This document shows positions 36,853 through 40,399 of a DNA stretch of 53,355 bases, piece after piece. The notes beneath the pieces are model-generated. The model was not told where the DNA came from. It saw only the letters and a program-made list of their open reading frames with translations, and did not search any database. How positions within the stretch are numbered: position 1 is the first letter of the stretch; each line of letters opens with the position of its first letter. A program made the translations under genes and the position numbers. The DNA is from Chloroflexota bacterium (lineage in GTDB: Bacteria; Chloroflexota; Anaerolineae; DUEN01): positions 1 to 53,355 of the forward strand of contig JAADGJ010000046.1 in the NCBI GenBank assembly GCA_013152435.1, given 5' to 3'.

Positions 36853-37473
36853 TCACGCGGGTATCCACGCGGTGCCGCGGCGGAGGGCATATCGCCGTGC
36901 GTAGGGCATGGCTTGAGGCACGCGAGAGGCGACCAACGCGTCCCTGACGGCGGCCCGGGCGCGGGACAGCCGGGATTTCACCGTGCCTACCGGGATGTTC
37001 AACACCTGTGCGATCTCCGGATAGGAGAGCCCCTCCACATCGGAGAGCACCAGGACTGTGCGCAGCGTGGTGGGGAGCCGATCTATCGCCTGGGCGATGC
37101 GCTCGCCCAGCTCTTTGCGAATCACCGCGTGCTCCGGCCCCTCGGTGTGGGTGGGCAGTGAGAGGTCACCATCCAGCGTGGTCGCCATCTCCTCCAGCGA
37201 GAGCGCCTGGCGCACCTTTTGCCGGCGCAGGTGGTCATAGCAGGCGTTCGTCACGATGCGGAGCAACCACGCTCGGAAGGAGCCACCGTGGAAGGTGTGT
37301 AGGTGGCGGAACGCTTTGAGGAAAGCCTCCTGCGTGATATCGGCAGCGGCCTCGCGATCTCTCACGATGCGCCAGGCCACGTGGTATGCCTGATCCTGAT
37401 ACTTTTCCACGAGCGGGTTGAACGCCGTCACATTGCCTTGTTGCGCGGCTCTCACGAGCATCTCCTCGTCCAT
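36853..37473 (-). CDS. ECF-type RNA polymerase sigma factor
   Basis: This 206-residue protein contains only regions 2 and 4, as in extracytoplasmic-function sigma factors. Region 2 shows VEKYQDQAYHVAWRIVRD and DITQEAFLKAFRHLHTF, and region 4 shows LPTTLRTVLVLSDVEGLSYPEI then GTVKSRLSRARAAVRDALV. A C-terminal extension of about 30 basic residues (about 177-206) is beyond the family core. ATG 37473 has AAGGAGGAGG upstream. No anti-sigma gene is adjacent. It lies downstream of the broken FHA regulator on the same strand with a 116-base gap, and may belong to the same signalling unit as the kinase. Confidence 0.93.
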   Translation of the reverse strand: MDEEMLVRAAQQGNVTAFNPLVEKYQDQAYHVAWRIVRDREAAADITQEAFLKAFRHLHTFHGGSFRAWLLRIVTNACYDHLRRQKVRQALSLEEMATTLDGDLSLPTHTEGPEHAVIRKELGERIAQAIDRLPTTLRTVLVLSDVEGLSYPEIAQVLNIPVGTVKSRLSRARAAVRDALVASRVPQAMPYARRYALRRGTAWIPA

Positions 37474-37589
37474 CGGTCCTCCTCCTTCGGGGAAGTGGGC
37501 GTTTACCCACTCCTATCGTAGCACCACATGGTTCGGAGGGTCGGATCGAAATCGGACCGAATTCGGACGAGATTTGGGCGGAAACGGGT

Positions 37590-38233
37590 TTATTCCGTCT
37601 CCAGTCGGAAGCCGAAGCCGCGCACGGTGTGGATGAAGCGAGGGTGTCGTCCTTCGTCCCCCAGGCGGGCGCGCAGCCGGCTGATCATGCGGTCGATGGA
37701 GCCATCGCATACGGCTCCGCCGGTGTGGGCCCATACCTGCTGGGCGATCTCATCCTTGCTCACCGCACGGCCCTTGGCCCGCCAGAGGAGCAGGAGGAGG
37801 GTGAACTGGGTGGGCGACAGGACAGGGGGGGATCCAGGAGGCGGCCATCCACCCATACCTCTCGCCGCTCCGGATCCACCCAAAGGCCGTGTTGGGGAGA
37901 TGCAGGGGCGGCGACCTGGGTTCTTGTCGCCGCCGGATCGTGGAAGCGGAGCTGTATGTCGGCCAGCTGCAGTACGCAGCCGTCGTCCAGCCAGGCCTCC
38001 TGCACTCGCTGGCCATCCAGGAAGACGCCATTCTTGCTGCCCAGATCACGGACCCGGTAACGCCCATCCTCCCAGAGGATCTCCGCGTGTCGCCGTGAGG
38101 CGAATGGATCCTGCAGGACGATGTCGTTATCGGGCGCCCGGCCGATTCGAGTACATTCCCGGTCCAGCGTGTAGGTTGTGCCCGCGTCAGGGCCGCTCAG
38201 GACGACCAGCCGTCCTCGTCCCGTAAAGCTCAT
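37590..38233 (-). pseudogene. FHA / winged-helix transcription regulator, frameshifted
   Basis: The upstream part encodes an FHA phosphothreonine-binding domain with Gly31-Arg32, Ser46 and His49 (ASRRHAE) and Asn68-Gly69 (GSKNG), the usual phosphopeptide-contact residues. The downstream part, in another frame, encodes an OmpR/PhoB-type winged helix (SPTQFTLLLLLW then IDRMISRLRARLGD and IHTVRGFGFRLETE). The break coincides with a tandem GACAG GACAG at 37816-37825; removing one 5-bp copy gives the standard joining sequence LLDPPLSPTQF and one frame through the whole gene. The intact product of about 212 residues would be an FHA-DNA-binding regulator. The start is ATG 38233 or GTG 38242. Either the break is real or it is an assembly error. 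Confidence 0.85.
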
Positions 38234-38287
38234 GATCTTCACCCCCAGGCCGCTGGTCGGTGAAGCTTAGCCAAAAGCCTGGCCTTA

Positions 38288-38296
38288 TGTTAGAAT
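38288..38296 (+). promoter_or_regulatory. extended -10 promoter of the Ser/Thr kinase gene
   Basis: TGTTAGAAT (38288-38296) is an extended -10 located just left of the MITE copy. The kinase leader would therefore contain the whole element. Confidence 0.4.
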
Positions 38297-38311
38297 CCAT
38301 CGCTGCTATTA

Positions 38312-38571
38312 AGAGTGTGTCTGAGAAATGCCGTTGCTTCTGCTATGGGGAGGCCCGGAGGGACTTCGCCCCTTCGGAAAAAGCCCTTCTTACGCCTTCG
38401 ACCTGCCTCGCCTCGGCTTAGATCCCTGCGGAAGGGGCCGAGAAAGGCAGGTGCAGGCCGGAAAAGTGGGATTTCTGTGGAGGGGACCTCCCCTCCACAC
38501 CTCCCCCTGTGGAGCTGATAGCTGAGGGAGCCCCTCAGACGTCTTATCGGTTAAACTCTCAGACACGCTCT
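38312..38571 (+). mobile_element. MITE-like element, best-preserved copy (260 bp)
   Basis: The left end AGAGTGTGTCTGAGA (38312-38326) and the right end TCTCAGACACGCTCT (38557-38571) are reverse complements with one mismatch. The interior has G+C-rich palindromic blocks, including GTGGAGGGGACCTCCCCTCC. No coding frame for a transposase is present. TA follows CGCTC at the right end. It lies between the kinase promoter and its start codon. Confidence 0.8.
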
Positions 38572-38665
38572 AAGATTGTATCCGGATCGTTGCCATGTGC
38601 CAAGCGGCTCTCTGTGGTGTTACAGGCTGTGGCCGATCCCGGAATCAGCCTCTTTGAGGGGCATC

Positions 38666-40399
38666 GTGCGGGCAGATGAACTGATCGGGCGCACCGTAGG
38701 CCGCTATCGGATCGAGAAGACGTTGGGTGTGGGCGGCGTTGCTGTGGTTTACGTCGCCTGGGACATGGCCCTCCACCGCCCGGTTGCCCTCAAGGTGTTG
38801 CTGCCCCATCCTTCTCTACCTCCCTCCGTTGTGGAGCGATTCCGCCTGGAGGCCATAACCGCTGCCCGGTTGGATCACCCTGGCATCGTGCCCATCTACG
38901 ATGTGGGCGAGGACCAGGGGCTGGTTTACATCGCGATGAAGTGGATCCAGGGCGAGACGCTGGCCGACGTGCTGGCTCGAGCCGGACGGTTATATGAGGG
39001 GGACGCGATACGGTTGGTGGCGCAGGTGGCCGAGGCGCTGGACTATGCCCACCGACAAGGCGTGATCCATCGAGATGTGAAGCCGGCGAACATCCTGTTG
39101 GCCCGGGAAGAGGACAGCGCCACCGACGCGGGCGTGTGTGCTTATCTCACCGATTTTGGGGTCGCCCGGGCGCTGGATGCACCTGACCTGACCCAGGCAG
39201 GCTTTACTGTGGGCACGCCCGCGTACATGTCACCGGAGCAGGCGGCGGGGAAGCGTGCCCTGGATGGGCGTAGCGACTTATACAGCCTGGGAGCTGTGCT
39301 CTATCACTGCCTGGCCGGGCGCCCCCCCTTCACCGGCGGGACACCTCATATCCTCTACGCGCACGTGTATGAGGCCCCGCCTCCGCTCCCCGCCGATGTG
39401 TCGCCGGAGATCGCTGCCATCGTCGATCGGGCGCTGGCGAAGGATCCGGACCAGCGGTTCCAGACCGGGGAGCAGATGGCGGCCGCCCTGCGATCCCTGC
39501 CAGCCCCACCTTCCCGGCAGGGACTCTCCCCTGTTTCCTGGCCTGCGGGCCCGCCGGGTGATGCGGCGGCGGGGGCGGAACGAAAGGGGCGGTGGCGAGG
39601 AGTGCGCCGGCTTGCCTTGGTTGGCGTTCTGCTGTTGATGCTCTCGGCACTGGTCGTTGGCGGTTGGGCGGCGGTTTCCCGCGCGCGTCGAGAGGGCTCG
39701 ACGCCGACGCCGACGGCGACCTCGCCCGTGGCGGCGATGGGGTACGCCCGCCGATTCACTCCTCCCCCCACGCCGACCCCCTTGCCGACGCCCACGGCTA
39801 CATCGACGCCGACGGCCACACCCCAGCCGACTCCAACCCCTTCGCCCACACCGGTGCCGACGCCACGTCCCGTGGTGGTGCCTCCTTCGCCCACGCCTAC
39901 GCCGATGCCCACCCCCGTCAACGTCTGCCCCATTGCGCCGCATATCGCTTTTATGGAGTGGTTATCCGTTCCCGAGCAGGCGGAGCAGATCGGATGTCCG
40001 ACAACGGGGGCTGTGATCACCTCGGCTGTCTTTCAGCGCTTTGAGTATGGGCAGATGATCTGGCGAGAAGATCGCCGCCTGATCTACGTGCGCTACGATG
40101 ATGGCGGCTGGGAGGTGGTGGAAGATACATGGCAGGAGGGAGACGCTCCTGTTGATCCGAACCTCACCCCTCCTCCCGGGCTTCGGCAGCCGGAACGACG
40201 TCTGGGAAAGGCATGGCGAACGTATCCCTATATCCGAGAGCGCTTGGGATGGGCCACCTCCGAGGAGATCTCCTTTGAGGGGGTATTCCAGTCCTTCGAA
40301 CACGGCGAGTTGATCGCGCAGCCGCCGGATCGCGTGTACGTCTTTCTGGAGGATTTGCGTCTGCGCCTCCTCTCATCGGAGGAGGGTACATCGCCGTAA
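38666..40399 (+). CDS. transmembrane Ser/Thr protein kinase (PknB-like) with outer sensor domain
   Basis: This 577-residue Hanks-type kinase phosphorylates Ser/Thr of target proteins. The kinase domain spans about 14-275 with a variant Gly loop (GVGGVAVVY), Lys43 (VALK), Glu62, catalytic Asp137 (HRDVKPANILL), Mg-binding Asp163 (DFG) and GTPAYMSPEQ. One helix (about 315-338) follows, then an outside Thr/Pro linker (about 345-418) and a C-terminal domain with two related units (EQIGCPTTGA...QRFEYGQMIW and ERLGWATSEE...QSFEHGELI) resembling LGFP-type repeats of cell-wall proteins. Start GTG 38666 has GAGGGG upstream; a longer frame begins at 38576. The divergent FHA regulator is a plausible substrate or reader. 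Confidence 0.93.
   Translation: MRADELIGRTVGRYRIEKTLGVGGVAVVYVAWDMALHRPVALKVLLPHPSLPPSVVERFRLEAITAARLDHPGIVPIYDVGEDQGLVYIAMKWIQGETLADVLARAGRLYEGDAIRLVAQVAEALDYAHRQGVIHRDVKPANILLAREEDSATDAGVCAYLTDFGVARALDAPDLTQAGFTVGTPAYMSPEQAAGKRALDGRSDLYSLGAVLYHCLAGRPPFTGGTPHILYAHVYEAPPPLPADVSPEIAAIVDRALAKDPDQRFQTGEQMAAALRSLPAPPSRQGLSPVSWPAGPPGDAAAGAERKGRWRGVRRLALVGVLLLMLSALVVGGWAAVSRARREGSTPTPTATSPVAAMGYARRFTPPPTPTPLPTPTATSTPTATPQPTPTPSPTPVPTPRPVVVPPSPTPTPMPTPVNVCPIAPHIAFMEWLSVPEQAEQIGCPTTGAVITSAVFQRFEYGQMIWREDRRLIYVRYDDGGWEVVEDTWQEGDAPVDPNLTPPPGLRQPERRLGKAWRTYPYIRERLGWATSEEISFEGVFQSFEHGELIAQPPDRVYVFLEDLRLRLLSSEEGTSP

Follow-up and report, generated by a model that had tools for sequence, protein, structure and literature searches.

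The window analysed here is a stretch of 53,355 nt from the draft genome of a Chloroflexota bacterium (contig JAADGJ010000046.1, positions 1 to 53,355). It carries a group of genes centred on a regulator with a broken reading frame. The features of this group are as follows (positions are those of the window).

36853-37473, minus strand: ECF sigma-70 factor gene, intact, downstream of the regulator on the same strand (Pfam Sigma70_r2/r4_2; position conserved in relatives)
37590-38233, minus strand: frameshifted FHA-winged-helix (FHA-wHTH) regulator gene (open reading frames in two frames; single-frame ortholog of 639 nt in genome G003)
37602-37826, minus strand: winged-helix domain of the OmpR/PhoB type (Trans_reg_C), encoded in the second frame (open reading frame and Pfam)
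37760-38233, minus strand: truncated open reading frame with the FHA domain and a tail of ~20 out-of-frame residues past the duplication (open reading frames; Pfam PF00498 at 37964-38152)
37816-37825: GACAG twice in tandem (37816-37820 and 37821-37825), the frame-breaking excess of 5 nt over relatives
37825-37831: run of seven G (C7 on the coding strand), not found in relatives
38268-38296, plus strand: promoter-like site directed towards the kinase (TAGCCA-17-TAGAAT, the second hexamer preceded by TG; consensus scan)
38313-38570: MITE-like element of 258 bp, bounded by terminal inverted repeats of 12 bp (GAGYGTGTCTGA) and flanked by a TAA target duplication
38666-40399, plus strand: divergent Ser/Thr protein kinase gene with start GTG 38666, intact (Pfam Pkinase, E 2e-44; start set by aligning it to the kinase of G003, L095)

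The regulator gene occupies 644 nt of the minus strand, a strand that the original prediction had not given, down to its original stop at 37590. ATG 38233 is its likely start, because it matches the ATG of the closest ortholog, which lies in a genome of the same family (G003). The first frame (minus strand, from 38242 or 38233 to 37760) encodes an FHA domain (PF00498, E 9e-23), followed by the out-of-frame residues and a stop at 37760. The phosphothreonine-binding motifs (GR, SxxH and N-G) are kept in this half as GRAPDND, SRRH and SKNG. At FHA residue 43 (38105-38107) this genome reads DPFASR, where DQFASR is invariant in nine relatives; the change from DQF to DPF is possibly an early sign of relaxed constraint. 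The second frame (minus strand, 37883 to 37590) contains a nearly complete Trans_reg_C domain (PF00486, positions 4-77 of 77, E 1e-19). An independent restart of this half was considered and rejected, since the best candidate codon, TTG 37883, has no visible ribosome site and an inner GTG cuts into the domain. Both domains pass the Pfam cut-offs, although the copy in the window lacks the single frame which joins them in the rest of the family. Judged by its sequence, it is a broken member, by descent, of the FHA-wHTH regulators. The original prediction, which had recognized an FHA / OmpR-type winged-helix regulator with both domains intact in different frames, and had placed the repeated GACAG and the adjoining G run beside the break, is borne out by the open reading frames, the Pfam matches and the single-frame relatives.

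The architecture resembles two known systems. EmbR of Mycobacterium tuberculosis combines an FHA with an OmpR-type DNA-binding domain in one regulator and is functionally paired with the Ser/Thr kinase PknH (PMC4601284); its FHA domain is also the best PDB match of the FHA-wHTH family profile (2FEZ, E 4e-19). However, EmbR is a protein of ~388 aa in the order wHTH-BTAD-FHA, whereas members of the family described here have ~213 aa, no BTAD and the reversed order, and the window copy is frameshifted besides. No BTAD match and no N-terminal winged helix of the EmbR type was found in the window gene; the family is thus not EmbR. The C-terminal winged helix is the Trans_reg_C domain of OmpR/PhoB response regulators, with RegX3 (2OQR) as best PDB match to this part, but an FHA domain stands in place of the receiver domain. 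The expected input is therefore phosphothreonine and not phosphoaspartate.

Loci from a search of about 100 genomes of the class show the gene neighbourhood. A Ser/Thr kinase is found within ~1.5 kb at 22 of 30 FHA-wHTH loci (window locus included) and is divergent in 21 of them, as is the kinase at 38666-40399. The pairing of kinase and regulator without a sigma factor is common across the class, and in the subgroup of the window gene (the window, G003, G097 and most of loci L015-L022) an ECF sigma gene follows the regulator. The complete module of kinase, FHA-wHTH regulator and ECF sigma factor spans 36853-40399 in the window and is also seen at L003/L095, L015, L017-L022 and L103. In several Caldilineaceae-type loci a second kinase-like match lies ~3 kb past the first kinase (L015-L019 and L021; first 550 bases), which suggests further kinase genes near these loci. 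From the gene pairing we infer that the kinase acts on the regulator. By analogy with EmbR and PknH, the FHA domain would then read phosphothreonine and tune DNA binding. Literature searches returned nothing on point for the FHA-wHTH family in Chloroflexota.

The cause of the frame break can be approached by comparison with relatives. The whole-genome search revealed a syntenic ortholog in G003 with 73% DNA identity and the gene order of the window: XerC/D-like recombinase, ECF sigma, FHA-wHTH, divergent kinase. This ortholog is a single frame of 213 aa and measures 639 nt from the matching ATG, compared with 644 nt in the window; relative to it the window gene is disrupted in the manner of a pseudogene. 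When the two are aligned, the 5-nt gap falls at the duplicated pentamer. In all nine relatives (G003 and eight Chloroflexota loci, L015-L022) the junction of the two domains reads DPPLS without added residues, and none of the nine has a C7 run or a GACAG tandem there. The exact 5-nt excess and the invariant junction favour one 5-bp tandem duplication, as originally proposed, as the most economical cause of the break. The G7 run, which had been named as an alternative cause, is less economical: as sole cause, an indel in it would give the junction two residues more than any relative has, and a second event would be needed. Among the matches listed in the class search, no other FHA-wHTH match is split within one contig. 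Partial matches in three genomes (G024, G026 and G065) were considered as further frame breaks and rejected, as all three run off contig ends.

A tandem pentamer is by itself not unusual. The window contains 46 tandems of two pentamers against ~55 expected from Markov shuffles, and 0.8 are expected per 653 bp; runs of G7 or C7 number seven against ~18 expected. What chance does not explain is the position: the 5 nt by which the gene exceeds its syntenic ortholog fall exactly on the tandem and exactly at the change of frame. The tandem is thus uninformative alone and gains its meaning from the comparison with relatives.

How old is the break? Relative to G003, omega is 0.15 for the FHA half and 0.135 for the winged-helix half, similar to the neighbouring genes, with synonymous sites near saturation. 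This genome has 12 lineage-specific replacements and G003 has 11, so the rate is not raised, and the relaxed selection that follows the break in a pseudogene is not seen in either measure. On these values we reject decay over a long time. Of the columns invariant in the outgroup, five have changed in this genome (Q to P, P to V, D to T, V to A and R to K) and four, conservatively, in G003; the five look harsher, yet so few changes do not allow a decision. As both halves are under purifying selection at an ordinary rate, the break is either recent or not real in cells.

The latter would be the case if the true gene were intact and the error lay in the draft, as a spurious duplication of 5 bp or a homopolymer of wrong length. 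The genome is a draft of 149 contigs, the site adjoins the G7 run, and both halves evolve without acceleration under normal purifying selection, like a working gene. Against this, inspection by eye of the open reading frames in the window found no other split-looking gene, and the remaining 19 wHTH matches of the genome all lie in open frames. A homopolymer miscount alone would leave the two surplus junction residues noted above, and exact tandem duplications of 5 bp are not among the errors that common sequencing platforms typically make. We therefore regard an assembly or consensus artefact as unlikely. Still more doubtful is a translational or transcriptional remedy, by which a -1 slip of the ribosome or the polymerase at the C7 run would yet yield one protein. 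The run is placed where a -1 frame change would join the halves, and both halves are conserved. However, RNA downstream folds no better than shuffled sequences (z +1.2), no Shine-Dalgarno-like stimulator is seen upstream, the relatives have neither the run nor the frame change, and the product would again be longer by two residues at the invariant junction; the chances of this explanation seem very slim.

The original prediction also envisaged a switchable slip that would turn the regulator on and off. As phase variation, this would mean reversible gain and loss of one GACAG (or one G) among the cells of a population. Like phase-variable genes with simple sequence repeats, the regulator has a frame-changing tandem repeat inside its coding sequence, here beside G7 at the junction of the domains. 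It differs from them in having just two copies and no repeat tract in relatives, where both the tandem and the G run are missing from this site, and no second allele was seen. Such tandems are about as frequent in the window as chance predicts and G/C7 runs less frequent, and phase-variable genes do not typically encode regulators of this sort. In the published scale, two pentamer copies and 6-8 G are "mutable" (1e-7 to 1e-5 per division), and "hypermutable" requires more (PMC4235727, Table 1). Two pentamers and G7 reach the former class and not the latter, which makes back-mutation possible but slow; moreover, the class is intermediate, and switching from such tracts may be rare according to the same source. 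With the repeat confined to this class, absent in relatives and no commoner than chance, we find the switch unsupported and consider phase variation improbable. A variant of the idea is that the two-copy pentamer acts as a low-rate contingency switch, uncoupling the kinase-reading FHA from the DNA-binding domain, and that the free FHA of the off-state competes for the kinase, in the way reported for EmbR2 and PknH. We hold this to be highly improbable; if it were true, the two states would signal in opposite ways.

We suggest instead that the gene is probably an allele, broken not long ago, of a conserved transcription regulator linked to a Ser/Thr kinase. The observation of a frame break is confirmed, the duplication is supported as its cause, the switch is not, and a recent loss-of-function allele is the most likely reading. 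In intact relatives, where the single frame is directly seen, the N-terminal FHA domain would recognize phosphothreonine, either in the divergent kinase or in the regulator's own chain, and would thereby govern how the C-terminal OmpR-type winged helix binds DNA. In this genome one GACAG (CTGTC on the coding strand) was presumably duplicated in tandem at the junction, probably by replication slippage beside the C7 run. Translation past the duplication would run out of frame for ~20 residues and stop, releasing a free FHA protein without the DNA-binding domain. The result would probably be a loss of function; at best, the free FHA would compete weakly for the kinase.

Such a loss may be tolerable because the same genome has two intact FHA-wHTH paralogs and because close relatives apparently do without the module. 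The paralogs encode 245 aa (contig C93) and 207 aa (contig C24), and each adjoins a kinase. Orthologs of the regulator, kinase and sigma factor of the window module were not found in a genome of the same genus (G001, 92% complete) or in another of the same family (G002, 85% complete), where the FHA-wHTH matches are apparent counterparts of the two paralogs only. Given these degrees of completeness, absence of the module from both is likely rather than certain.

The divergent promoter region offers a further trace of disturbance. The MITE-like element is inserted between the promoter-like site at 38268-38296 and the start of the kinase gene. In G003 a similar TGnTAnAATCC motif is recognizable by eye in the intergenic sequence, which contains no MITE-like insert at the corresponding place. 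The element belongs to a family with 3-bp TNA target duplications. A search that scored 40 of its 338 first-look candidates puts the family at 40 copies or more in this genome, identical 3-bp flanks of the form TNA surround 10 of 14 scored copies, and one good copy was found in G001. Insertion and duplication together suggest that the module, in this particular copy, is undergoing disturbance or loss. On the other hand, the flanking kinase and sigma genes are intact and under selection, which argues that the module as a whole is no relic and counts against our preferred explanation.

As a mutation the break is an ordinary one, in which a short tandem duplication disrupts a regulator that is probably non-essential. 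The module around it is a candidate kinase-to-promoter pathway whose regulator has the domain order opposite to that of EmbR, and of which we found no description in the literature searched. If it is as we propose, the broken copy represents a natural case of an FHA half parted from its DNA-binding half.
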